A DNA stretch of 64,000 nt from Orenia marismortui DSM 5156 (GTDB lineage Bacteria; Bacillota; Halanaerobiia; Halobacteroidales; Halobacteroidaceae): the NCBI RefSeq assembly GCF_000379025.1, contig NZ_KB900617.1, forward strand, positions 493,547 through 557,546. The letters are read 5' to 3'. Positions 24,054-52,122 of this stretch are shown here, in pieces. The notes below the pieces were generated by a model. That model was not told the DNA's origin and did no database searches. It saw nothing but the letters and a program-made list of their open reading frames with translations. How positions within the stretch are numbered: position 1 is the first letter of the stretch; each line of letters starts with the position of its first letter. The position numbers and the translations under genes are program-made.

Positions 24054-25283
24054 ATTGCAATATAAAATGCACGGTTTTTTATTACTCAATACCTCATAAA
24101 TTTTAAGCTGCCTTTAACTGTTCTTCAAATATATAATTTGCATTCTTAAACCCAAACATTTTTCGTGGATAATTATTTATCCATCGCTCAATTCTTTTAA
24201 CTTCATTTCTGCTAATATTCTTAAAGCTACTTCCTTTTGGTAAAAACCTTCTAATCATTTTATTTAAATTCTCATTACTACCTCTTTGCCAAGAACAATA
24301 AGCATCAGCATAATATTGACTAGTTCTTGAGATATCACTTCCTGTAAAGGAAGTTTCTATCCCTTCATAATCATAGAATTCTTTACCATTATCTGTAGTT
24401 ATAGTTTTAAATAAGTCTCTAAATTTTCTAACTCCTATTCTTCTTTCTACGCGATCTAATCCTTTTATTACAGATTCTTGAGTCTTATTAGGTATTAGTT
24501 CTATTATTTCTTTGCGACTATATCTCTCTGTTAAAACTAATAAAAAGGGCTCATCTTTACCTTTCCTACCCTCTACTAAGTCCATTTCCCAATGACCTAT
24601 TTCTGACCTTTTATCAGCTTCCTTAGGCCTATCTGATATCTTTCTTCCCTCTTTTCTCCTTTTTGTTGATTCTTTTTCTTTCTGTTTAGATTTATTAGTC
24701 TTTTTATATCTACCATAAACCAAATCTTCTCTATCTATAAACAGAATGCCTTTATCTATATAATTATATATCGTCTTCCAATGTATTTTAATTTCAAACC
24801 CATCATCCTCTTTAATCATCTCTGCAATTACCTCTGGAGAATAATTTCCTTTTATTTTTTCTTCTATGAATTCAGCTAATTGATGATCTTTTCCTATTTT
24901 AATCTTAGCTCCTTTAGCAGTCGCATTGTTATCATATAAGTTTTGAGCTATATCAGCATCGTATTCTATTCTTTTAGTGTAATCTGAATTTAATAATACA
25001 AGCTTTCCCCTTTCAATTTCTCGACTTATTGTCGTCCTATGCCTCCCTAACTCTCTTGCTATTGCTGTCTTCGATTTGTTTTGTATATTATATAAATGTT
25101 CTATTATCTTTCTCTCTTCCCACTTTAAATGTTTTCCTTTTCTACTTTTTGTGTTATAATTATTTTGGCACATATTTAATACCTCCAATGTTTGCTTTGG
25201 TCAGTTAACATTATATATGAGGTATTAATGTGTGTCATTTTTTATTTTTTGAACTATCCGTGCATTTAATTATACAATGCACC
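24054..25283 (-). mobile_element. IS30-family insertion sequence
   Basis: About 1,230 bp, the family's normal size, bounded by 19-bp direct repeats. The subterminal ends carry AAATGCACGG (24065-24074) and its complement CCGTGCATTT (25258-25267), inside a 17-of-21 inverted match, and a second shared block ATACCTCATA near both gene ends. One intact transposase gene fills it. It sits between nrdR and the ylmC-sigG group. Confidence 0.85.
24103..25173 (-). CDS. IS30-family transposase
   Basis: A 356-residue transposase, full length and without frameshift, so the element may be active. The N-terminal helix-turn-helix (KTAIARELGRHRTTISREIE) binds the ends. The DDE catalytic triad is visible in HWEMDLVEG, TTDNGKEF and SNENLNKMIRRFLP. 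It starts at the ATG at 25173, nine bases after GGAGG; a TTG five codons upstream lies within that site and is not the start. The protein recognises the inverted ends described for the element. Confidence 0.95.
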   Translation of the reverse strand: MCQNNYNTKSRKGKHLKWEERKIIEHLYNIQNKSKTAIARELGRHRTTISREIERGKLVLLNSDYTKRIEYDADIAQNLYDNNATAKGAKIKIGKDHQLAEFIEEKIKGNYSPEVIAEMIKEDDGFEIKIHWKTIYNYIDKGILFIDREDLVYGRYKKTNKSKQKEKESTKRRKEGRKISDRPKEADKRSEIGHWEMDLVEGRKGKDEPFLLVLTERYSRKEIIELIPNKTQESVIKGLDRVERRIGVRKFRDLFKTITTDNGKEFYDYEGIETSFTGSDISRTSQYYADAYCSWQRGSNENLNKMIRRFLPKGSSFKNISRNEVKRIERWINNYPRKMFGFKNANYIFEEQLKAA

Positions 25284-34282: not shown

Positions 34283-34783
34283 TCAAAACTTCATTCCAAG
34301 ATTTGCTATATAGCCTGAAACTCCAAAAAGTGATACCTCCAATGAAAACTTTTCATATCCTATACCTATGCTTGGTATAACCGCTGGAAATGTTCCTAAA
34401 TCATTCATATAAGAAGAGTACTTACCGTTTTCATCATCATAACCACTAATAATCCCATAGGTTAATTTACCATATAAGTTGAAATCTGATATTTCCTTAT
34501 ACTGATAAACTTTACCAGCATATATATACCATGTAGGTTGGAAATATGAATTCTGAAAATATGCTATACCATAAAGCTTAGAATTAGACTTATGGTATTC
34601 CAAACCTATCAAATCCTGTTTATTATTACGATCAGGATTTTGATTCCAATGATAGGTTGTCAGACTGGTCTGTAAAAAGAAATAACTTTCATTTTCAACC
34701 TCTTGAGCAGTTATAGGCGTGGAGTGAAATAAAAACATTACTAAAAATAGAATAAATAAAATCTTAATATTGCCTCTTATCAT
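34283..34783 (-). CDS. Candidate outer-membrane beta-barrel protein, PagP-like
   Basis: A 166-residue exported protein: signal sequence ILFILFLVMFLFHSTPITAQ, then alternating polar/hydrophobic strands and a C-terminal phenylalanine (NLGMKF), as in outer-membrane barrels. The spacing of AYFQNSYFQPTWYIYAGK and GTFPAVIPSIGIGYEKFSLE is reminiscent of PagP (lipid A palmitoyltransferase), but the catalytic Asp-Ser of PagP reads Asn-Ser here. It sits inside the cobalamin locus between cbiA and cobO. Function is unknown: lipid enzyme, small pore or corrinoid-related barrel. The start is the ATG at 34783. Confidence 0.55.
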   Translation of the reverse strand: MIRGNIKILFILFLVMFLFHSTPITAQEVENESYFFLQTSLTTYHWNQNPDRNNKQDLIGLEYHKSNSKLYGIAYFQNSYFQPTWYIYAGKVYQYKEISDFNLYGKLTYGIISGYDDENGKYSSYMNDLGTFPAVIPSIGIGYEKFSLEVSLFGVSGYIANLGMKF

Positions 34784-34953
34784 CTTATACACCATCCTTA
34801 AGCAATCAGATAAAATTAAATTTTCTCCGATTTATATTATTTTCCACGCCATATTATAACATATATCATCTCATTTTTGTAATTTTTAGAATAATTACAT
34901 ATAATTTAGTGGGCTTTAATAAATCATGGTATACTATTAATTTTAAATAAACA

Positions 34954-37696: not shown

Positions 37697-39217
37697 TTAG
37701 CGATGTTTCATAGCAATAATTTCATATAATAATTCCATATTTAAATTATCTCGCACCAAATCAGCTAAATTATTATAAGCTTCTTCTCTTTCCTTTTCAG
37801 TTGAAATTTTTCCCTCTCTTAAAGGAGCTAATCCCTTCTCTCCCCTTAACTTATTAATAAAACTTCTTCTAAATTGCTGATTATCAAAGATACCATGCAA
37901 GTAAGTTCCCCAAACTCGTCCCTCTTCACTACAAGCTCCATCACTAACATTAACCTCTTGCTGAGATCGCTTAGTTATTCTAAAAAGTGGCTTAACCTTC
38001 TCCCCCAACTCTGTCCTTCCCATATGTATTTCATAAGCTTTTACAGAACTATCAGCAATCTCTAATAATTGCTTATTAATTAATTTGGCTTCTACTTGAC
38101 TAGTTATCTTCTCCTCTTCTATAGTAGTCTCAATATCCAATAGTCCCAGAGCTTTAATCTCCTGCTTCTTACTTTCAATTCCATCTGGATCCTTAATTAT
38201 ACTTCCTAAGATCTGATAGCCACCACAGATACCAACAATAGTAGTTCCTGATTCAAAGCTTTTAATAATCTCTTTATCAAAATCAATCTGATACAAATAA
38301 TCGAGATCATCAATCGTATTCTTAGTTCCAGGTATGATAATTACATCTGGATTTCCTAATTCAAACTTATCCTTCACATAACGAAGTCTAACTCCTGGCT
38401 CCTCTGCCAAAAGATCAAAATCGGTAAAATTGGAGATATGGGGTAAAGTAATCACTGCAATATCAACTTCATAATCTTTAGCACCTTGCACATACTCAGC
38501 AATTACATCCTCTTCTGGAATTTTGAACTCATTGAAATAAGGTATTACTCCTAAAACAGGCACTCCTGTCTCCTGCTCAATATATTCTATACCCGATTTT
38601 AATCGGCTAACTTCTCCTCGGAATTTATTGATAATAATAGCTTTGATTCTATTCTTCTCTTCTTCATTTAGTAACTCAAAAGTTCCAATAATATCAGCAA
38701 AAACACCACCTCGATCAATATCAGCTACTAATATTACAGGAGCAGCTGCCAATTTTGCTACCTTCATATTTACTAAATCAAAATCTCGTAAGTTTACCTC
38801 AGCAGGGCTTCCAGCTCCTTCAATAACCAAAACTTCATACTCTTCTTTCAATCTCTTTAAAGAATCTTTAATTGCTTTTAATCCTATTTCTTGCTCACTA
38901 AAATAATCTTTAGCCTTAATCTGAGTAGTTACTTTACCATGAATAATCAATTGAGCAATTGTATCCTCTTGTGGTTTTAAAAGAATTGGATTCATATCCA
39001 CTGTTGCCTCTATCTTTGCAGCTTCAGCCTGCACAGCTTGAGCCCGACCAATCTCTCCTCCTTCTCTAGTCACATAAGAATTAAGAGCCATATTCTGTGA
39101 TTTAAAAGGAGCTACCTTATATCCATCTTGATAAAAAATTCTACAAAATGCAGAGCTTAAAACACTCTTTCCTACATGGGAAGCTGTTCCTTGGATCATA
39201 ATTGTTTTAGTCTCCAT
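37697..39217 (-). CDS. cbiP: Cobyric acid synthase, copy 1
   Basis: A 506-residue amidase for the b, d, e and g side chains. The P-loop segment is MIQGTASHVGKSVLSSAFCR (residues 7-26), followed by the canonical APFKSQNMALNSYVTREGG and MNPILLKPQEDT. The GATase1 cysteine is in IVGICGGYQILG (near residue 330) and the histidine in WGTYLHGIFDN. Of the two tandem copies this one has the more canonical substrate-binding motifs. It begins two bases after the stop of copy 2. Confidence 0.94.
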   Translation of the reverse strand: METKTIMIQGTASHVGKSVLSSAFCRIFYQDGYKVAPFKSQNMALNSYVTREGGEIGRAQAVQAEAAKIEATVDMNPILLKPQEDTIAQLIIHGKVTTQIKAKDYFSEQEIGLKAIKDSLKRLKEEYEVLVIEGAGSPAEVNLRDFDLVNMKVAKLAAAPVILVADIDRGGVFADIIGTFELLNEEEKNRIKAIIINKFRGEVSRLKSGIEYIEQETGVPVLGVIPYFNEFKIPEEDVIAEYVQGAKDYEVDIAVITLPHISNFTDFDLLAEEPGVRLRYVKDKFELGNPDVIIIPGTKNTIDDLDYLYQIDFDKEIIKSFESGTTIVGICGGYQILGSIIKDPDGIESKKQEIKALGLLDIETTIEEEKITSQVEAKLINKQLLEIADSSVKAYEIHMGRTELGEKVKPLFRITKRSQQEVNVSDGACSEEGRVWGTYLHGIFDNQQFRRSFINKLRGEKGLAPLREGKISTEKEREEAYNNLADLVRDNLNMELLYEIIAMKHR

Positions 39218-39219
39218 AA

Positions 39220-40746
39220 CTAAAACTCACCCTCTTCTAAAATGTCATAGATTAATTTCAGATCTATATTCTCTCTAACAATTTGAGCTAATTGATCATA
39301 GCTTTCCTCTAATCTTTCCTTGCTCACAGTAGATTCTTTCTTTAATTCATCCAAACCCTTCTTTCTTCTTAACTGATTAATAAAAGCTCTTCGAAAGCTA
39401 TCATTATCAAAAATACCATGTAAATAGGTACCCCACACTAAGCCATCCTGACTACAAGCCCCCTCCATAATGTCTATTTCTTCTTCTGAACGAGAAGTTA
39501 TCTTAAACATAGGATTGGCTTCTGATCCTAATCTGCTATCTCCAGCATGAATTTCATAAGCTTCAAGTTCTTTTTCAGTTAAAGATTTTAAAAAGCCTTC
39601 TTTTCCTTCAACTATAGCTTCAGTCTGATGGGTCAACTTATTTTGGCTAAATGTTGTCTCTACATCTAATAAAGCTAAACCTTTAATCTCTCTGATATTA
39701 CCCTCAGTCAAATTAGGATCTAATAATCTCTTTCCTAAGATCTGGTATCCACCACAAATACCTACTATAGCTTTACCTTGTTTAGCATAATTAATTATCA
39801 TTTCAGCTAATCCTGTCTCTTCTAAGTAATTTAAATCAGCAGTAGTATTCTTAGTTCCTGGAATAATAATTAAATCATAATTCTCTAGAGAATCATTAGC
39901 GCTTAGATATTCAACTTCCACTTCAGGTTCATAAGCTAATACATCAAAATCACTAAAATTAGAGATATGAGGAAGATTAATTATTCCAATCTTAATCTCT
40001 CTTTCTTGCTTACACAAGTTATCTAAAGAGAGTGAATCTTCATCAGGAATTTTAAAATCTTTACAACAAGGAATAACTCCTACTACCTTTTTTCCTGTTT
40101 TCTCCTCTAAAATATCAATCCCTGGCTTTAATAAATCATAATCACCCCGGAACTTATTTAAAATAATCCCTCTAACCAATCTTCGTTCTTTGGGCTCTAA
40201 TAACTTCAATGTACCTACTACTGAAGCTAAAGCTCCACCTCGATCAATATCTGCCACTAACAAGACAGGAGTCTGATTTAATTTAGCCACCTTCATATTA
40301 GCAATATCCTGATCTTTAATATTTATCTCTGCTGGACTTCCTGCCCCTTCTAAGACTAGAATTTCAAATTCATTGCTCAGCTCTGCTAAAGAATCCTTAA
40401 TAATCTCTAAAGCCCATTCAATATATTCTCTACTCTTTCTATCAGCTCTAAAATCTCCTATAGCCTTCCCCTTAACTATTATCTGAGCTATTCCTTCTCC
40501 CTTAGGCTTAACTAAGATAGGTTGCATCTTCTCTTTAATCTCAATCCCTGCTGCATCAGCTTGAACTGCTTGTGCTCGACCTATCTCACCACCTGCTTTA
40601 GTAACATAAGAATTTAAAGCCATATTCCAAGACTTGAAAGGCGCTACCTGATATCCATCTTGAGCAAATATCCGACAAAAGGCAGTGGCTAATATACTTT
40701 TACCAACATTAGAGGCTGTCCCTTGTAACATAATTCCTTTACTCAT
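39220..40746 (-). CDS. Cobyric acid synthase paralogue, copy 2
   Basis: A 508-residue full-length paralogue of the downstream cbiP. The P-loop (MLQGTASNVGKSILATAFCR), GATase cysteine (IVGICGGYQILG) and WGTYLHGIFDN are intact. Two normally conserved places differ: KSWNMALNS instead of KSQNMALNS, and MQPILVKPKGEG where copy 1 has MNPILLKPQEDT. Both lie in the synthetase domain near the ATP and corrinoid. It may amidate a different side chain or corrinoid, or form a mixed complex. Divergence suggests an old duplication. Which copy is the true CbiP is not provable from sequence alone. Confidence 0.85.
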   Translation of the reverse strand: MSKGIMLQGTASNVGKSILATAFCRIFAQDGYQVAPFKSWNMALNSYVTKAGGEIGRAQAVQADAAGIEIKEKMQPILVKPKGEGIAQIIVKGKAIGDFRADRKSREYIEWALEIIKDSLAELSNEFEILVLEGAGSPAEINIKDQDIANMKVAKLNQTPVLLVADIDRGGALASVVGTLKLLEPKERRLVRGIILNKFRGDYDLLKPGIDILEEKTGKKVVGVIPCCKDFKIPDEDSLSLDNLCKQEREIKIGIINLPHISNFSDFDVLAYEPEVEVEYLSANDSLENYDLIIIPGTKNTTADLNYLEETGLAEMIINYAKQGKAIVGICGGYQILGKRLLDPNLTEGNIREIKGLALLDVETTFSQNKLTHQTEAIVEGKEGFLKSLTEKELEAYEIHAGDSRLGSEANPMFKITSRSEEEIDIMEGACSQDGLVWGTYLHGIFDNDSFRRAFINQLRRKKGLDELKKESTVSKERLEESYDQLAQIVRENIDLKLIYDILEEGEF

Positions 40747-41740: not shown

Positions 41741-42145
41741 CTACTCATTATGCTCTTCCAAAGCAAAACTCAAGTTATCAACATCAGCTTTTTTAGCAGC
41801 ATCCATCACCCCTATAACCTCTTGAAAAGCAACTTGCTGATCAGCAAAAATACTAATATTTTTTTGAGAATTATCCTTTAATTTTTCCTCTAACTTCAAA
41901 GCTAAATCCTCTAATTCTACTTTATCTTTACCTAGATAGATATTAGCCTCTTTAGTAATATAGATTTTCACCTCATTACTATTCTTTTCTTCTCTAGCTT
42001 GAGTTTTAGGTAATTGAATATTCTCCTTTACCTCTCTAATATTCAAGGTAGATGCTACTATAAAGAAGATTAATAATAAAAATACTACATCTATCATTGG
42101 CGCCAAATTCAACTCTAGATCATCTTTTTTTACTTTATATTTCAT
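41741..42145 (-). CDS. exbD: Biopolymer transport protein ExbD
   Basis: A 134-residue inner-membrane protein with one transmembrane helix whose start carries the proton-conducting aspartate (LNLAPMIDVVFLLLIFFIVA; the Asp is in MIDVV). The periplasmic domain follows. With ExbB it uses the proton motive force to drive TonB. ATG at 42145 is preferred over the GTG at 42154, which sits in the GGTGGAG ribosome binding site. The gene overlaps the end of exbB by 11 bases. Confidence 0.93.
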   Translation of the reverse strand: MKYKVKKDDLELNLAPMIDVVFLLLIFFIVASTLNIREVKENIQLPKTQAREEKNSNEVKIYITKEANIYLGKDKVELEDLALKLEEKLKDNSQKNISIFADQQVAFQEVIGVMDAAKKADVDNLSFALEEHNE

Positions 42146-42752
42146 CATCTCCACCTATCTCTTTAATATAATTAATCAACTCTATTTCTCTTCTTTCACT
42201 ATGATTAACTATCCCTTCTAACTTAGTAATAAAGAAATAATAGGCTGCTAGAGTCGGAAGAGAAATTATTAAACCTGTAGCTGTTGTAAATAAAGCTTCT
42301 GAAATCCCCCCTGCTAATTGCTGGGCTTCTCCATTCATAGATAAGATTTGAAAGGTTTTGATCATTCCTGTTACCGTTCCTAACAACCCCAAAGAAGGAG
42401 TTATCTTTCCTATAAAATTCAACACACCTAAATATCTTTCTAACTTAGGAAACTCCATTAATTTAACCTCTTCCATCTGGTTTTCTATCTCTTCAGCCCT
42501 TTTATTCCAATGTAGAATTCCTCGCTTTAAAACTTTAGTAATTGGTCCTTTGCTCTCTTCAGCTACTTTAATTGCTGCTTCAATCTTTCCCTCTTTAATA
42601 TTAGCTTTAATTCTTTTGATCAACTCATCAGAAATTTGCTTATCAACCTTAGAAAATTGATATAACCGCTCAATTATGATCGCCATTGCAATTACTGAAC
42701 AGATTAATAAAGGATAAATTACTATCCCACCTTTAGCTAACAAACCTTGCAT
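42135..42752 (-). CDS. exbB: Biopolymer transport protein ExbB
   Basis: A 205-residue inner-membrane protein of the MotA/TolQ/ExbB family with three transmembrane segments, the first at residues 10-28 (VIYPLLICSVIAMAIIIERL) and the others in the C-terminal half (ITPSLGLLGTVTGMIKTF and ALFTTATGLIISLPTLAAYY). It forms the proton channel with ExbD. It is encoded between tonB and exbD, next to btuB. A dedicated energising complex for outer-membrane uptake is the natural reading. Confidence 0.94.
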   Translation of the reverse strand: MQGLLAKGGIVIYPLLICSVIAMAIIIERLYQFSKVDKQISDELIKRIKANIKEGKIEAAIKVAEESKGPITKVLKRGILHWNKRAEEIENQMEEVKLMEFPKLERYLGVLNFIGKITPSLGLLGTVTGMIKTFQILSMNGEAQQLAGGISEALFTTATGLIISLPTLAAYYFFITKLEGIVNHSERREIELINYIKEIGGDDEI

Positions 42753-42763
42753 CCCTTAACCTC

Positions 42764-43744
42764 CTAATTCAATCTAAAATTAACTGGTATTAAGACTAAT
42801 GCTTCAACCTCTTTATCTTCTTTTTTAGTTGGACTAAATTGCCACTTCCTAACTGCTTCTACTGCAGCTTGGTCTAGCTTCTGATATCCTGATGATCTTT
42901 CAACCTTAATCCTCTTTACACTTCCTTGTTGATCTAAGAGTACTTTTAAAATCACTTTACCTTCAATCTCTCTTCGTCGCATACTTGCTGGATAGATAGG
43001 TTGTTGGTAATTAGTTAACTTCGGTAATACAACCCCTTTAGTCACTTTAGCTTGAGTTAAATCAACAGGATTCTTGCTTTTTTTTGTCTTCATATTTTTT
43101 TCAGCATTTATCTTATTCTTAGTCGCTTTCTTCTCTTTAGTTTTAACTTCTTCTGCTACAGCTTTGATCTCTTCTTCTTTACTTACTTGCTCTTTTTCTA
43201 CCTTTTTCTTTTTTGGAAATTCTTTCACAACTCTTTTTTTCTTCTTTATTTCTTTATTTCTATCTTGTTTTACTTTTGCTTTGCCTTCACTTTTTTCTTT
43301 TACTTTACTTACTTCTTTAAGTTCTTCTTTCTTCTCCACTTCTAAGCGACTTTTCTTTATTTTCTTACCTTCAATCTTCTCTTTCTTTACTTCTTGAACT
43401 TCATCTTCTGCCAGATCATTCTTTTCTTCTATCTTTTCTTTTGGAGATATTCTCTCTTTTTCTTCCACTACCTTTTGGGCTATCTTCTCTTGCTTCTTAT
43501 TGTCTGCCACCTCTTTTACTTCTTTAACTTCACTCTCCTTTTTGATATCTTTAGATTTAGTAATATCCAAGGTAGTAGCTTTAAAACTAACTTTTGGACT
43601 AGCTTTCTTTCTGCCTGTTGCTAAATCTTTTCCTAAACTAAGTTCAGGTATTAAATTAAATAAAGCTAGATGAATTCCTAAAGCTATAATAAGGGAAAGC
43701 TTTAATGGAGTGATCTTGCCCTTGATTTTTTCTATTAACTTCAT
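42764..43744 (-). CDS. tonB: TonB energy transducer with long charged linker
   Basis: A 326-residue protein: an N-terminal membrane anchor (PLKLSLIIALGIHLALFNLI, residues 12-31), a linker from about 50 to 235 made almost only of Lys and Glu, and a C-terminal TonB domain with PIYPASMRRREIEGKVILKV. The H in the anchor (GIHLALF) matches the conserved anchor histidine. The linker has few prolines, unlike proteobacterial TonB, and probably forms a long charged helix crossing the periplasm. ATG at 43744 follows AAGGAGGG. Confidence 0.93.
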   Translation of the reverse strand: MKLIEKIKGKITPLKLSLIIALGIHLALFNLIPELSLGKDLATGRKKASPKVSFKATTLDITKSKDIKKESEVKEVKEVADNKKQEKIAQKVVEEKERISPKEKIEEKNDLAEDEVQEVKKEKIEGKKIKKSRLEVEKKEELKEVSKVKEKSEGKAKVKQDRNKEIKKKKRVVKEFPKKKKVEKEQVSKEEEIKAVAEEVKTKEKKATKNKINAEKNMKTKKSKNPVDLTQAKVTKGVVLPKLTNYQQPIYPASMRRREIEGKVILKVLLDQQGSVKRIKVERSSGYQKLDQAAVEAVRKWQFSPTKKEDKEVEALVLIPVNFRLN

Positions 43745-43821
43745 TCTAATTTCCCTCCTTATCAACAAATAAGGAAAGGACAGAAATCTAGATATCTGCC
43801 CTTATAAAGTGACTAGTATAA

Positions 43822-45636
43822 TTAAAACTTCTTACCTACTGTTAACATATAATTACGTTCTAACATTGGATAACCTTTATTAACCTGATATTTTCTATCA
43901 AACAAATTATTAATTCCTAAGGATAATTCTAAATTCTCTTTAATTTTCTTATTCAACTTTGCATCTACTACAAAATAACTAGGCAATTCCTCAGTTCGAC
44001 CTGCCACTAACTGACCATTTAAAGATCCACTAATCTTTTTACCACTATAATTTAATCCTAAATTCAAGCTATGATAATTCCTGTAATCTAATCTTTGATC
44101 TGTTTTCTTATCCCTAGCATCTAAATAGGTATAATTAAAGTCAGCAGCTAGATTATCAGTTAAATATTTAGTTAAGATTAATTCTAGTCCCGATACCTTA
44201 GCTGTATTAATGTTTGAAGGTCTATATATACCGTCATTACCTGGAGCCCAATTTATTAAATCATTCACATCTCTCGTAAATAAATTTACTTCTCCTTTGA
44301 AGTTATTATCTAAATATCTTAGTCCAGTCTCATAAGCAAGAGCAGTTTCTGGCTCTAAATCAGGATTGCCTTCTGTATAATCATCTGCTGGCCAGTACAA
44401 ATCATTATAAGTTGGAGTTCTATAGGCCTCTCCTACAGATACATGTAAATTCAACTTTGAATTAATAGTATATACTGCTCCTATTCTAGAACTAGTTTCA
44501 CCCCCAAAGCTTTCATGGTTATCATAGCGACTTCCTAAAGTAAGCTTTAAATCATCAATTAACCTCCACTCATCTTGAATGAATATAGCTTTACTTAAAT
44601 CATTATGTTCTCCATTCTCCGTACTATCAATTCTATTCTCTACTACTTCTCCACCATAACTTAAAGTGTGTGCATCATAGTATTTAATTTGATTAAAATC
44701 TAAAGTTAACCTTTCAGTATTATGTTCACTTGGACCATCATATCCCCACTTATCAGGATTATCATAAATATTTTGATGATCATTATAATAAAGAGCTATT
44801 TTACTATCACTATTTTCTGTCTGCTGATTCCATTGTAAATTAATATTCATATCTTCATCATCCTGCTGAGCATTAGGAGTTGTAGAACTTATTGGCCCTG
44901 GTGATCCCTTAGCTGAATCAGTATATTGTAGTGAAAATAATAAATCGGAATACTTATTTAACTCATAATTAAATTTAGCAAAAATATTCTCTTGATCTAA
45001 TTCACTATTTTCACGATGACCATCTGATTTTTTCTTAGCTATAGATATATTATAACCCAATTTATCAGACTCACCTTGATGAATTAATTTATAATCTTGA
45101 GTATTAAATGATCCATAGCCTACTTTCATACTTGTTTCAGCGGTTTGGCTACCACTTTTAGTTATAATATTGATTACCCCTCCTAAAGCATTCGCGCCAT
45201 ACAATGCTGAGGCTGGACCTCTTAAAACTTCTATTCTCTCTATCTGTTCAATAGAGAATTGACTCAAATCAACACTTCCATTTTGACTACTATTCATTGG
45301 CTGACCATCGATTAAAATTAATACCTGCTCAGTGTCTGCACCACGAACTCTAATTGTCTTTTGACCTGCAGGACCACCATAGTCAGTAAAATTTATTCCT
45401 GCCATATTTCTTAATAAATCAGCCACATTATGAGCATTTTTCTGCTTAATCTCCTCTTCATCAATTACTTCCACACTTACTGCTGCTTCTGATAATTTCT
45501 CTTCATATTTAGAAGCAGTTACCACAATTTCATCTAAAGTTAAAATTTCTCCTTCCTTATCTTTAGCAAAAGCATTTCCTCCTACTAATAAATTTAATAC
45601 TACTAGACTAAATAAAATAAAATTAAACCTTTTCAT
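43822..45636 (-). CDS. btuB: TonB-dependent outer-membrane receptor, BtuB-like
   Basis: A 604-residue outer-membrane receptor. It has a signal sequence (FILFSLVVLNLLVGGNAFA), a TonB box (LDEIVVTASK), a plug domain (VADLLRNMAGINF to ALYGANALGGVINIIT) and a 22-strand barrel ending in NYMLTVGKKF with the terminal Phe of barrel proteins. The setting (cobalamin genes on both sides, tonB-exbB-exbD downstream) makes cobalamin or other corrinoids the likely ligand. A siderophore ligand is the alternative. Start ATG 45636 after GTGGAGG. Confidence 0.92.
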   Translation of the reverse strand: MKRFNFILFSLVVLNLLVGGNAFAKDKEGEILTLDEIVVTASKYEEKLSEAAVSVEVIDEEEIKQKNAHNVADLLRNMAGINFTDYGGPAGQKTIRVRGADTEQVLILIDGQPMNSSQNGSVDLSQFSIEQIERIEVLRGPASALYGANALGGVINIITKSGSQTAETSMKVGYGSFNTQDYKLIHQGESDKLGYNISIAKKKSDGHRENSELDQENIFAKFNYELNKYSDLLFSLQYTDSAKGSPGPISSTTPNAQQDDEDMNINLQWNQQTENSDSKIALYYNDHQNIYDNPDKWGYDGPSEHNTERLTLDFNQIKYYDAHTLSYGGEVVENRIDSTENGEHNDLSKAIFIQDEWRLIDDLKLTLGSRYDNHESFGGETSSRIGAVYTINSKLNLHVSVGEAYRTPTYNDLYWPADDYTEGNPDLEPETALAYETGLRYLDNNFKGEVNLFTRDVNDLINWAPGNDGIYRPSNINTAKVSGLELILTKYLTDNLAADFNYTYLDARDKKTDQRLDYRNYHSLNLGLNYSGKKISGSLNGQLVAGRTEELPSYFVVDAKLNKKIKENLELSLGINNLFDRKYQVNKGYPMLERNYMLTVGKKF

Positions 45637-45676
45637 TTTTTCTTCCTCCACTTTTATCAATAAGTTTTTATTTCAA

Positions 45677-46405
45677 TTATCCTAACCTTCCAATTACATT
45701 AATAGCTTTCTGAATATCTTCTTTTAATTTAAACAAATCGCCTTCAGCTATGCTTACTAATACAACTGTAGCAGGACCAGCTGATTTATCTAAATCTAAT
45801 TTAGAGTTTAACAATTCTAAACTCAATTGATTGGATTTTGCTAATACATTGGCTTCATATAAAATTCCTTTAGATCCTACTGGCAATATTTCATGAATAT
45901 AATCTAATTCTAAGATTTTCAAAACTAATTCCAAATCTGCAATCTGATCTCTATCCTCTACAACCTGATATCCTACCTTAGGCAATCCTAAAGCAATTAT
46001 AAGATCACCTTTTTGAGAGATAGCCAACCTTAATTGATTTAAGGTAACAATCCCAATTGTAGTTACTCCTATTCCTGTTTGGACAGTAGTTATATTCTCT
46101 TCTGTACTTCCAGTTAATAAATTTTCAATTCCTACTATAGATAGTTCATCTTTAATACCTGCAATAATCTCCTTACCTGTAGGTTCTAACTCTACACTTA
46201 AGGTATCAATAATAGATATAGGCTTAGCTCCACTAGCTAGCAACTCCATTAAAGCCACTCTAGCTGTAAATTTACCTACTATATGGTTAGAAAGCTTTAT
46301 CTTATCCTCTATTTTGCTACCTATTCCACCTGCAGAATCACAAGCAATCACCAAAAATTTCTCATCATCTAACTTTAAAATAGATATATCTCTAAAGTTA
46401 TTCAC
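45677..46405 (-). CDS. cblS: Alpha-ribazole kinase-like protein CblS (AIR-synthase fold)
   Basis: A 242-residue protein with the PurM/ThiL-type fold: VIACDSAGGIGSK (residues 19-31) is the metal/ATP loop, and the later ASGAKPISIIDTL and GSTEENITTVQTG segments fit AIR-synthase-related proteins. In Listeria and Geobacillus an AIR-synthase-like CblS phosphorylates alpha-ribazole imported by CblT. The neighbouring gene is a CblT-like protein five bases upstream, so I assign that role. It starts with GTG after AAGGAG. The kinase activity is inferred from context. Confidence 0.82.
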   Translation of the reverse strand: MNNFRDISILKLDDEKFLVIACDSAGGIGSKIEDKIKLSNHIVGKFTARVALMELLASGAKPISIIDTLSVELEPTGKEIIAGIKDELSIVGIENLLTGSTEENITTVQTGIGVTTIGIVTLNQLRLAISQKGDLIIALGLPKVGYQVVEDRDQIADLELVLKILELDYIHEILPVGSKGILYEANVLAKSNQLSLELLNSKLDLDKSAGPATVVLVSIAEGDLFKLKEDIQKAINVIGRLG

Positions 46406-46410
46406 TAAAT

Positions 46411-46887
46411 TTACTCCTTACTAAAGAATTTGTTTAATATAACTGCTAAGAATATATTAGCTGCTGATGCTAATGTTAACATCGTAACTATTCCTATAAA
46501 AAGCCCTTGCCCTAAGAATGGAATTAAAAGAGCAGGTAAAATAATACCATTACAAACAATAGCTATGATTGCTGCTAATATAATATTTGTCTTGGCCAAA
46601 TATCCAAATATAAGACCACACACCCCCATTAACAGAGCAATGATGATATGGAAAGGACCTAATACAAAACCAGCTATTAAAGCAGAAATCAAATGGCCAA
46701 ATATCAAAATAACACTCCCAAATTTACCGCCTAAGAGTAATACTCCTAAATAACCAGGGAGAGAATCAAAAGCAATACTTCCAACAGGACTAGGAAATTT
46801 CAAATAAGCACCTACCCCTGATAAGGCAATTAATAAAGCACTTTTAACTAAACTTGCTATCTTTTTATCATCTACTTTCCCCTTCAT
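46411..46887 (-). CDS. cblT: Alpha-ribazole transporter CblT (ECF-type S component)
   Basis: A 158-residue membrane protein with five to six hydrophobic segments. KSALLIALSGVGAYLKFP near the N-terminus and GVLLLGGKFGSVILIFGHLI are in line with small ECF S-component folds. CblT brings alpha-ribazole or its precursor into the cell for CblS. An ECF energising module is not present here. Start ATG at 46887, GGAGGT upstream. Confidence 0.8.
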   Translation of the reverse strand: MKGKVDDKKIASLVKSALLIALSGVGAYLKFPSPVGSIAFDSLPGYLGVLLLGGKFGSVILIFGHLISALIAGFVLGPFHIIIALLMGVCGLIFGYLAKTNIILAAIIAIVCNGIILPALLIPFLGQGLFIGIVTMLTLASAANIFLAVILNKFFSKE

Positions 46888-46914
46888 CTATACACCTCCA
46901 ATATAAGCTTTACA

Positions 46915-48171
46915 TCAAAGCATCTTTATTTCTTCTAAAGCTTCAAATTCTTCTTTAACCACAACTACTTTTTCCCTTAATAATCTTTCAAATATCTCTC
47001 TTCCTTCTCCGCCAGTATAATCTTTATTCTTTAATTTACAACTGTTTACTACTATAACTCTTTTACTATTTCTTGCTGCCCACAAAACCGCTTTCAGATT
47101 AGCTAAGTTTCCTGCACCGATAGGTATATCAGTCAAAACTATCGTATCCACCTCTTTTATTTGGGTTAAATTCTTATTATGCTTCTCATCACTAATAGGA
47201 GTAAATGGATCTTCACTAATAGTTTCAATTTCTAAAGACTTCGCCAGCTCCCAATCAGAATCAGACCGATTTAAAACCCCACAGCTTAGTTGGTAGCCTG
47301 ATTCAACTAAAGCCTGCATTAAATCTCTAGCACTCCCTCCACCACAAACTAAATGTATCTTATGATCTAATCTATCTTTAGTATGGATATTTTTATTATT
47401 TAAAGTAAGGTAGGGTCTTTTACTCAAATAATCTTGCTTAATCAGCAGTTTTAAACCATACACCTCTTCTATTTTTTTAGTGGTAACTACTTCCCGCGGA
47501 GTACCAAAGCTATGAATTTGCCCATCTTTAAGTAATAGCAATTTATCACAAAACTTAGCAGCTAAATTTAGGTCATGTAGAATAACTAAAATTGTTAAAC
47601 TCTCTTTTTGATTTAGTCTTCTTAATAATTCCATTATCTCTATTTGATAGTTAATATCTAGATTAGAGGTGGGCTCATCTAATAATAAAAGCTCTGGTTC
47701 CTGGGCTAAACTTCTAGCCAAAACTACCCGCTGCCTTTCACCACCACTAAGCTGATTAATATATCTATCTGACAATTTTATAATATCTGTTAACTCCATA
47801 GCCTTTCTAGCTATCTTAATATCTTTAGAACTTTCTCCTTTCCATCGACTAACATAAGGAGCTCTACCCATTAAGACTATATCTTCTACTCTAAAATCAA
47901 AGTTTATATTAGTCTCTTGCGATACTATAGCTACTTGCCGTGCTAAATCTTTATTCTTAATCTTCTTTAAATCAAAATCATCTAAATAAACTATTCCCTT
48001 ATTTGGCTTTAAAATATTACTGATATTCTTTAATAAAGTAGATTTACCAGAACCATTAGGCCCTATCAAACCAATAAATTCACCTTCTTTAATAGCAAAA
48101 TTAATCTTAGTTAAAATATCTATTTGATCATATTGATAACTTAAGCTATCAACCTCTAATTTTATTGTCAT
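46915..48171 (-). CDS. btuD: Corrinoid ABC transporter ATPase BtuD with C-terminal extension
   Basis: A 418-residue protein. Residues 1-250 are a FecE/BtuD-type ATPase: Walker A GPNGSGKST (near 37), signature LSGGERQR, Walker B LLLLDEPTSNLD and an H-loop in VILHDL. Residues 270-418 form an added alpha/beta domain (HLVCGGGSARDLMQALVESG; DTIVLTDIPIGAGNLANLKA). Its GGGSA glycine loop suggests nucleotide or phosphate binding, but I cannot name its function. The same extension occurs in other anaerobes' corrinoid ATPases, from memory. It works with BtuC and BtuF. Confidence 0.88.
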   Translation of the reverse strand: MTIKLEVDSLSYQYDQIDILTKINFAIKEGEFIGLIGPNGSGKSTLLKNISNILKPNKGIVYLDDFDLKKIKNKDLARQVAIVSQETNINFDFRVEDIVLMGRAPYVSRWKGESSKDIKIARKAMELTDIIKLSDRYINQLSGGERQRVVLARSLAQEPELLLLDEPTSNLDINYQIEIMELLRRLNQKESLTILVILHDLNLAAKFCDKLLLLKDGQIHSFGTPREVVTTKKIEEVYGLKLLIKQDYLSKRPYLTLNNKNIHTKDRLDHKIHLVCGGGSARDLMQALVESGYQLSCGVLNRSDSDWELAKSLEIETISEDPFTPISDEKHNKNLTQIKEVDTIVLTDIPIGAGNLANLKAVLWAARNSKRVIVVNSCKLKNKDYTGGEGREIFERLLREKVVVVKEEFEALEEIKML

Positions 48172-48188
48172 TTATATCACTCCATCAA

Positions 48189-48258
48189 TTACAGCAACTT
48201 GTTACTTATTACTAGTTACTAGTTACTTGTCACTTATCACTTATCACTTGTCACTGAT
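48189..48258. repeat. Word-repeat array in btuD-btuC spacer
   Basis: Roughly 7-9-base units such as 'ttactagttactagttact' and 'cacttatcacttatcactt' fill most of the 97-bp spacer. The array has no coding frame. Confidence 0.75.
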
Positions 48259-48268
48259 ATATTTAAAG

Positions 48269-49312
48269 TCAGATAGTCTTCTTAGTCTTTAATAAATAAA
48301 GAAAGAAGGGAGCCCCAAATAAAGCAGTAATAATTCCTACTGGAATCTCTGTTGGAGCAATTACTGTTCTAGCCAAGGTATCTGTTAAAATCAAAAATAT
48401 TGCTCCTACTAAAGCTGAACTAGGAATTAAGATTCTATGATCTGATCCTACTAATAATCTAACAATATGTGGAACAATCAATCCAATAAAACCAATCAAA
48501 CCTCCCACAGCTACCGCTGATCCAGTTAATAAGGATCCTACTACCAATAATATTTTTTTTAATTTCTCTACTTCAACTCCTAAGCTCTGAGCTGACTCCT
48601 CACCTAATAAAATCAAATTTAAATCCTTAGCTAAGAAATAAATTATAATATAAGCAATTATAATATAAAGCCAAACCATCTGCACTTCCTTCCAACCACT
48701 TGTAGCCAAACTACCCATAGTCCAAAATACAATTTGGTGCATACTATCATCATTAAAGACCATTAATAAAGATACAATTGCTGATAAAAAAGAACCTACT
48801 GCCACACCTGCTAATAATAGTGTTGCTATAGAAATTTTATGATTATATTTAGCTAAGTTATAAACAATAAAGACAGTTAACAAAGCACCTATAAAAGCTA
48901 ATAAAGGAATAGTATTTAAATAATAAAGATCAAAATTTAATTTTAATATAAATCCTAGACTAGCTCCCAAAGAAGCTCCAGAAGAGATACCTATTATATA
49001 AGGATCAGCCATAGGGTTTTTTAATAAGGATTGAAACAAAGTACCTGCTGTTGCTAAAGCAACTCCTACTAAGGCAGCTAATAACACTCGTGGCAATCTA
49101 ACCTTAAAGATAATGGTCTCCATAATTTCAAAATCATTCTGATTATTAATAAGCCCTTTCACTAGTGGGATTTTACTTGCTATTAGCTTAGCTAACTTAA
49201 AAAAAGGTAACTTTACTGCACCTAAGCTCACTGCCAGCATTAATGTTAATATTAAAAAAATAACTAGTCCAACTATAATTAATCTCCATTTTATCTTCTT
49301 ATCATTTATCAT
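48269..49312 (-). CDS. btuC: Corrinoid/iron-type ABC permease BtuC
   Basis: A 347-residue FecCD-family permease with about ten membrane segments. LVGVALATAGTLFQSLLKNP (residues 83-102) and LIGFIGLIVPHIVRLLVGSD are family signatures. It forms the pore for BtuF-delivered corrinoid. I place the start at the ATG at 49312; a TTG at 49336 would overlap the stop of btuF. Confidence 0.9.
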   Translation of the reverse strand: MINDKKIKWRLIIVGLVIFLILTLMLAVSLGAVKLPFFKLAKLIASKIPLVKGLINNQNDFEIMETIIFKVRLPRVLLAALVGVALATAGTLFQSLLKNPMADPYIIGISSGASLGASLGFILKLNFDLYYLNTIPLLAFIGALLTVFIVYNLAKYNHKISIATLLLAGVAVGSFLSAIVSLLMVFNDDSMHQIVFWTMGSLATSGWKEVQMVWLYIIIAYIIIYFLAKDLNLILLGEESAQSLGVEVEKLKKILLVVGSLLTGSAVAVGGLIGFIGLIVPHIVRLLVGSDHRILIPSSALVGAIFLILTDTLARTVIAPTEIPVGIITALFGAPFFLYLLKTKKTI

Positions 49313-49328
49313 CTTTTCAACTCTTTTC

Positions 49329-50234
49329 TTAATCAAATAATTCTGGGTGAATTGCTTTAGCTATCTTTTCTAAAGCAATAATAATCCGCGGTCCAGCTCT
49401 ATTAACAATATCAGGATTCAAAATATAAATTCTCCCTTGCTTAATTGCTTTGATCTTCCCGAAATTTTCTCGCTCTTTAACTGCTTCTTTGCTAAATTTA
49501 CCTTCTACACCATGATTAGAAAGCAGATAAATATCAGGGTTCTTAGCCAATAATACCTCAAAATTATACTGAGGCCATACTCCCTTAGCATCATGAGCAA
49601 TATTAATGCCACCGGCTAAATAAATTAAGTCATCAACATAAGTACCAGGACCTGCAGTATATAAAGGTTCTTGCCAAACTTCATAAAAAACTTTCAACCT
49701 TGGTTCATCTGCTACAATTTGGCTTATCTTTTCTATCTTATCTCTCATCTTAGTAGTTAATCTACTAGCTTCTTCAACTTGTCCAGTGGCTTTTCCAATT
49801 AAAGAGATAGAGTCAATAATCTCATCTATACTTTTAGGATTAAATCCAATAACTTTAATTCCAAATTGTTCTAATTTAAATACCAAATCTTTAGGTGTAA
49901 TCCCACTTGCCAAAACTAAATCTGGTCTTAATTGTAATATCCTCTCTAAATTTATTCCCTTAATTGTACCAACTTTAGTTATTTTAGTAGCAGCTTCTGG
50001 ATAATCAGCATATTGACTTACCCCAACTACCTCTTCTCCTAAACCAAGTTCAAATAAAATTTCGGTATTACTAGGTGCTAAAGAAATGATTCTAGTTGGT
50101 CTTTCTTCAATAATAACTTCACGACCTAAATCATCAATAACCCTTATAGGAAAATTAGCTGCTCTTACAAGATTGCTTCCAATCAATAAAAGAAATAAAC
50201 TTATTAACACAATCACTTTAGACTTTAACTTCAC
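49329..50234 (-). CDS. btuF: Periplasmic corrinoid-binding protein BtuF
   Basis: A 301-residue class III binding protein with a cleavable signal (VIVLISLFLLLIGSNLVRA, cleavage after ARA-type site) and no lipobox, so it should be a free periplasmic protein, which suits a diderm cell. RIISLAPSNTEILFELGLGE and VVGVSQYADYPEAATKI are BtuF hallmarks. Start is a GTG after GGAGGAG. A cobalamin riboswitch lies upstream. The 3' end overlaps the longest possible btuC frame. Confidence 0.92.
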   Translation of the reverse strand: MKLKSKVIVLISLFLLLIGSNLVRAANFPIRVIDDLGREVIIEERPTRIISLAPSNTEILFELGLGEEVVGVSQYADYPEAATKITKVGTIKGINLERILQLRPDLVLASGITPKDLVFKLEQFGIKVIGFNPKSIDEIIDSISLIGKATGQVEEASRLTTKMRDKIEKISQIVADEPRLKVFYEVWQEPLYTAGPGTYVDDLIYLAGGINIAHDAKGVWPQYNFEVLLAKNPDIYLLSNHGVEGKFSKEAVKERENFGKIKAIKQGRIYILNPDIVNRAGPRIIIALEKIAKAIHPELFD

Positions 50235-51783: not shown

Positions 51784-51818
51784 CTTAGTACCCGAAGATA
51801 GTTAGTTATCTAATTTAT

Positions 51819-51981
51819 TAGGCAGGTCTCCTGACTTCTAGCCTAGAATTAGACTTTCCTTCCCTAGAATATAATTTCTAAGTGGATAAAAAAATCTAAT
51901 AAACTAGTTACAGTGGCGGGTCCGCTCAGGATTTTCACCTGATTCCCTATTCTCTTTTAGTCCTTACTAAAAGCACCTAAT
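51819..51981 (-). promoter_or_regulatory. Cobalamin riboswitch 2
   Basis: On the minus strand the order is GGTGCTTTTAG (near 51978), GGGAATCAGGTGAAAATCC, CCGCCACTGTAACT and GTCAGGAGACCTGCC. All B12-box elements are intact. It has its own terminator platform. The next gene downstream is the MscS channel, 280 bp beyond the platform. Confidence 0.92.
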
Positions 51982-52122
51982 AAAGATATTTTATTGTACT
52001 TAATCATAGGGATTCTATAAAACTAATACTTTTCCTGCTTTAAAGTATAATTTTTTTAGCAGCTAAGCTTATATAACTTTAGAATCAAATTTAAATATGT
52101 CGTTATAGATAGATAAAGCGAC

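Follow-up and report, generated by a model that had tools for sequence, protein, structure and literature searches.

A double-membrane corrinoid salvage operon predicted in Orenia marismortui, a sporulating diderm member of the Halanaerobiia

The corrinoid uptake system of E. coli, in which BtuB, TonB, ExbBD and BtuFCD act, has the same parts as the locus described here, the same receptor fold (Z 45.6), a TonB box and a riboswitch before the receptor gene, although sequence identity between the two systems is only about 22%. The E. coli btuB gene has trmA and murI as its neighbours and none of the other parts beside it, whereas in the 64,000-nucleotide stretch of Orenia marismortui DSM 5156 DNA analysed in this study (the window, to which all positions refer unless stated otherwise) the parts form one riboswitch-led block that, unlike the E. 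coli btuB locus, also holds cblT, cblS and lower-pathway genes. Acetohalobium arabaticum, of the same class, shares with the window the gene order btuFCD-btuB-tonB-exbB-exbD, the long BtuD and the upstream cobalamin riboswitch, but has both CobT and CbiC, a lipobox in BtuF, and cblS outside the block. Two congeners (genomes G440 and G441) share the site after sigE, the MscS gene, the riboswitch and an orthologous BtuB; they differ in that another btuFCD, whose BtuD is short, lies upstream of MscS, that exbBD are missing, and that the cob genes stand together with cblTS at another site. In the Negativicutes, Veillonella parvula likewise shows TonB transport in a diderm Firmicute, but it belongs to another lineage and has nine systems, to which B12 specificity was not assigned (PMC5491611).

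A 2025 survey detected Ton systems among diderm Firmicutes in Negativicutes only, reported complete, presumably non-functional Ton systems in Clostridia, and argued Ton ancestry from such distributions (PMC12204202). Because the NCBI taxonomy files Halanaerobiales within Clostridia, the Clostridia genomes with Ton genes in that survey may be the same genomes as some considered here. Already in 2019, a proteomic study of Halanaerobium congolense had reported transporters of the TonB-dependent kind for B12 and iron (PMC6544827), so that their existence is not new in this order. In view of these earlier reports, our result extends and organises known facts. The parts of the locus are well supported, and together they make up no new kind of system: corrinoid uptake is canonical here and conserved within the lineage, with alpha-ribazole salvage added to it in this locus. 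The kind of system is ordinary and the lineage is under-reported.

Layout of the uptake block and its riboswitches

A preliminary description of this DNA had placed btuB, tonB, exbB, exbD and btuFCD in 41741-50234, and all seven were found as intact minus-strand open reading frames with Pfam scores far over cut-off. It had passed over cblT, cblS, two cobalamin riboswitches, an MscS gene and the downstream cob cluster. The features are listed below in minus-strand order.

51804-51995, minus strand: cobalamin riboswitch 1, probably orphaned; RF00174 117.7 bits
50540-51451, minus strand: MscS-type mechanosensitive channel; Pfam MS_channel_2nd 49 bits
50352-50521, minus strand: cobalamin riboswitch 2, predicted to control the uptake operon; RF00174 80.9 bits
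50262-50290, minus strand: intrinsic terminator of riboswitch 2; 11-pair stem and U-run, fold z -4.45
49329-50234, minus strand: btuF, soluble periplasmic corrinoid-binding protein; Peripla_BP_2 138 bits, with vitamin B12-binding proteins among the top solved-structure matches (5ysc E 1e-38)
48269-49336, minus strand: btuC, permease; FecCD 336 bits
46915-48171, minus strand: btuD, ATPase; NF007082 (corrinoid ABC ATPase) 323 bits over residues 4-355, ABC_tran 119 bits
46411-46887, minus strand: cblT, ECF substrate component for alpha-ribazole; ECF_trnsprt 42 bits, 37% identity to the pMF1298-5 CblT candidate
45677-46405, minus strand: cblS, alpha-ribazole kinase (AIRS fold); 38% identity to pMF1298-5 CblS, Listeria context
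43822-45636, minus strand: btuB, predicted TonB-dependent corrinoid receptor; TonB_dep_Rec 174 bits, Plug 116 bits, structure model
42764-43768, minus strand (ATG at 43744): tonB, with a charged Lys/Glu spacer; TonB_C 80 bits
42135-42752, minus strand: exbB; MotA_ExbB 99 bits
41741-42154, minus strand: exbD; ExbD/TolR 106 bits
29985-41653, minus strand: lower cobamide pathway; profile matches, gene order kept by the congeners at a separate site

All genes of the block lie on the minus strand, separated by short gaps or overlapping, in the order btuF-btuC-btuD-cblT-cblS-btuB-tonB-exbB-exbD. The binding protein, FecCD permease and ATPase of the BtuFCD importer are all in this one block, and the Pfam domains TonB_C, ExbB and ExbD occur in it together. 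The lower cobamide-assembly genes follow as cobU, two tandem cobQ, cbiB, cobB, an outer-membrane barrel gene, cobA, cobS, pduX, an aminotransferase and a phosphatase. The linkage of receptor, energiser, importer and assembly genes claimed earlier was present, but the assembly genes comprise the lower pathway only, CbiC being missing from the genome.

The signal peptide of BtuF and its lack of a lipobox, both noted previously, were read from the sequence; the missing lipobox was rejected as a mark of diderm cells, since BtuF of A. arabaticum carries one. The C-terminal extension of BtuD, about 160 residues long (46915-47400, minus strand), had no Pfam match and is covered in part by NF007082; this long form was found again in relatives. 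Both cobQ copies (37697-40746, minus strand) scored far over the cobyric acid synthase cut-off, and because G440, G441 and G436 also have the tandem pair, the pair is old. A transposase-like reading frame at 24103-25188 (minus strand) resembles the IS30 family as judged by eye.

Cobalamin riboswitches were identified with the RF00174 model (gathering score 31.5). The genome has two, both in the window, whereas each congener has three, the third preceding the cbi region. The terminator of riboswitch 2 sits just upstream of the btuF ribosome-binding site; no terminator-like sites were found when they were sought on the minus strand from btuF to cobU, and the genes over this distance may be co-transcribed. 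Riboswitch 1 matched the congener's btuF riboswitch in 77% of nucleotides, and the orthologous element in the congeners precedes a btuFCD that is missing in the window. This nucleotide similarity and the congeners' gene order suggested that riboswitch 1 once belonged to the lost btuFCD, of which it is apparently a leftover. A protein remnant was sought in the 350-nt gap after riboswitch 1, ahead of MscS, and none was found. With riboswitch 1 assigned to the lost btuFCD, the idea of MscS as a B12-regulated channel was dropped; MscS adjoins the B12 locus only in the genus and in G437.

Distribution and mosaic history of the operon

BtuB was found in 24 of the 59 genomes of the class, including those of A. 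arabaticum (G321; chromosome of 2,469,596 bp, PMC3035264) and Halanaerobium praevalens (G227; 2,309,262 bp, PMC3156398). In every one of the 24, a cobalamin riboswitch precedes the operon and shares its strand, with two open reading frames between riboswitch and operon in A. arabaticum, and every one has tonB adjacent to btuB. Adjacent exbB-exbD were present in 21, the exceptions being G440, G441 and G437. Nearly all genomes of the class, whether BtuB is present or not, encode a second, different TonB.

Such patchy spread would be expected if the Ton and BtuB genes had recently been acquired from Proteobacteria or Negativicutes. In the BtuB tree, however, the Halanaerobiia sequences were monophyletic (100/100), separate from E. 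coli and from those of other members of the phylum, and the window joined its congeners (100/97). The ExbB proteins of the class also grouped together (97/99). These groupings make a recent acquisition unlikely. The phylogeny of the Ton proteins proposed in the preliminary description, run here with phylum members and E. coli, did not show their source, and neither the ExbB tree nor the outgroups of the BtuB tree resolved deep origin; the TonB C-terminal alignment was too short to place the TonB of the window (AU p 0.11).

The history of btuFCD differed from that of btuB. After sigE, G440 and G441 have the order riboswitch-btuF-btuC-short btuD-MscS-riboswitch-btuB-tonB. At the same site the window is without this btuFCD but has kept its riboswitch and MscS, and the btuFCD that it does have, placed before btuB and with a long BtuD, is of a type shared with Acetohalobium, G436 and G438. 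Grouping of the window with its congeners was rejected for BtuF (AU p 8e-10), BtuC (7e-5) and BtuD (5e-7). Because BtuB follows the congeners and btuFCD does not, the operon is a mosaic, which could have come about by reciprocal loss of two ancestral copies or by replacement through transfer, both of which are possible. The congeners have their cob cluster elsewhere, with cblT-cblS between cobS and pduX. In the window the cluster is next to the uptake genes, and the cblT-cblS pair is placed between btuD and btuB. CblT and CblS of the window scored closest to those of the congeners, suggesting a native move rather than an import.

Receptor, energiser and outer membrane

The TonB box and C-terminal Phe described previously for the btuB product were both present, the box reading LDEIVVTA; a signal peptide was also read from the sequence. 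An AlphaFold model, based on an alignment of 20 sequences from the class, yielded the expected barrel, with a plug and 22 strands (pLDDT 86.1, pTM 0.86). The top Foldseek match to this model was E. coli BtuB (E 6e-41), and VIA-align superposed the two over 532 residues with an rmsd of 1.9 Å. E. coli BtuB entries occupied ranks 1-11 by Z, followed by FecA (40.5) and Cir (40.0). In the PDB sequence search, the colicin I receptor Cir was marginally nearer to the receptor than E. coli BtuB, and the score against TIGR01779 (283 bits), although the best of all NCBIfam models, did not reach the cut-off of 599.7. The fold alone is therefore no proof of the ligand, and we claim for the receptor a putative BtuB-like function, but no membership of the proteobacterial BtuB equivalog.

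The argument for a probable corrinoid ligand is drawn instead from the riboswitch and the neighbouring genes. One fold is common to TonB-dependent transporters and Cir was the best PDB sequence match, as would also be the case if the receptor had a different ligand, a siderophore or heme for instance, and stood among B12 genes incidentally. This reading is decidedly unlikely given that BtuB was the best structural match, that a cobalamin riboswitch lies upstream in all 24 genomes, and that the same genome has a separate receptor-ABC-Ton locus without such a riboswitch. The separate locus (L049; G000:C1:857500-876500) contains a second receptor gene and exbB-exbD-tonB, along with genes for an ATPase, two permeases of the FecCD family and a binding protein that is a lipoprotein. 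It has no cobalamin riboswitch and probably serves siderophore or heme uptake.

The energiser genes were weighed between Ton and Tol. TolQ and TolR models of NCBIfam outscored the Exb models for ExbB and ExbD, all under cut-off, and the spacer of TonB (42764-43768, minus strand), with Lys and Glu making up 119 of 327 residues and Pro 11, is nearer to the charged TolA type than to the proline-rich type. These features would suit a Tol-like system for outer-membrane stability that merely happens to neighbour btuB, a possibility that we regard as very improbable, because the C-terminus matches TonB_C, this strong match recurs beside btuB in 24 of 24 BtuB genomes, the second TonB occurs nearly throughout the class with or without BtuB, and tolB and pal are absent from the block. 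The context favours Ton for ExbB and ExbD.

The earlier suggestion of an outer membrane in a spore former was followed up in the whole genome, which encodes four Omp85 proteins, BamA included. OmpH-like and TamB genes are next to the BamA gene. Genes were found for LPS synthesis (LpxA, LpxC, LpxD, LpxI, LpxK), LPS export (LptF/G and an LptC-like protein), KdsA-like and KdsD-like proteins, and the L and P rings of the flagellum (FlgH and FlgI). Neither of the two outcomes that the preliminary description had named as counting against its reading, a genome without BamA or other outer-membrane genes and a failed barrel prediction for the receptor, was obtained. The products of sigE, sigG, spoIIGA and spoIIR, listed in the preliminary description, all scored over NCBIfam equivalog cut-offs. 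These envelope and sporulation genes give good support to the prediction that O. marismortui forms spores and is diderm. The envelope gene set agrees with published work on Halanaerobiales, in which the outer membrane of Halanaerobium saccharolyticum was seen by microscopy (PMC5007114); that of the present strain is predicted from its genes. Outer membranes are already on record for the endospore formers Acetonema longum (reviewed in PMC5007114) and Sporomusa ovata (PMC3772150), so that an outer-membrane system in a spore former is unsurprising in itself.

These results also bear on the suggestion made for the Clostridia Ton genes (PMC12204202), by which the present system would be a vestige in a bacterium with one membrane. 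The taxonomic placement of Halanaerobiales speaks for it. It is made scarcely credible by the same genome's genes for BamA, for making and exporting LPS and for the L and P rings of the flagellum, and by intact Ton genes with a riboswitch ahead of them.

A secreted protein of 170 residues encoded between cobB and cobA (34283-34795, minus strand) was predicted to form an 8-strand outer-membrane barrel. Its family occurs in 15 of the 59 class genomes, and both congeners have it at the same position. The top Foldseek match was the lipid A enzyme PagP, with OmpA and PagL tied on VIA-align. Homology to PagP was not adopted, the structure being suggestive and the profile match not significant; an invariant His of the barrel aligns with the active-site His of PagP.

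Alpha-ribazole salvage and the proposed uptake route

CblS and CblT are related to proteins of the Lactiplantibacillus plasmid pMF1298-5, which correspond to the operon named CblT, CblS, CobS, CobC in PMC6722938. CblS relatives in Listeria adjoin cobU-cobS-cobC. The CblT and CblS of Listeria and Lactobacillus share with those of the window 37-38% identity and the cobS/cobC context, but they occur in monoderms, whereas those of the window lie inside an outer-membrane uptake operon. A PDB sequence search with CblS and CblT found no relatives.

CobT (PF02277) was not found in the O. marismortui genome (99.95% complete), nor was CbiC, which is present in both congeners. The absence of these two genes indicates that O. 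marismortui is probably a corrinoid salvager. Judged from CbiC alone for the upper pathway, corrin-ring synthesis has likely been lost and imported corrinoid would be relied on. Some relatives carry both CobT and CblT/CblS, and across the class the presence of BtuB does not track the absence of CbiC.

Taken together, the evidence makes it very probable that the locus is a complete corrinoid salvage operon serving both membranes of a diderm, spore-forming species of the Halanaerobiia. Under cobalamin shortage, the riboswitch would allow transcription to run past its terminator. BtuB would capture corrinoids at the cell surface, and ExbB-ExbD with TonB would use the proton motive force to open the BtuB plug. 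BtuF would then gather the corrinoid in the periplasm for BtuCD to pump into the cytoplasm. Alpha-ribazole may be imported by CblT together with an ECF module whose genes lie elsewhere, and CblS would phosphorylate it, standing in for the missing CobT, before CobU, CobS and the other lower-pathway enzymes complete the finished cobamide.

We also propose, tentatively and with some doubt, that the Halanaerobiia have kept their Ton system for B12 by vertical descent as an old component of the outer membrane, not gained it as a stray import, that the Negativicutes-only record would be an artefact of sampling or of a taxonomy that places Halanaerobiales in Clostridia, and that in this species the system was merged into a single salvage block with alpha-ribazole salvage and lower-pathway genes after the loss of corrin-ring synthesis. 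Complete Ton systems are common in the Halanaerobiia, with BtuB and an adjacent TonB in 24 of 59 genomes, which corrects the record of PMC12204202. Being compact and preceded by a riboswitch, the locus offers a reporter of how the outer membrane works in a diderm Firmicute that forms spores. Because B12 uptake is measurable, outer-membrane transport could be traced through sporulation and germination, making the operon useful as a model for outer-membrane function in a spore former.
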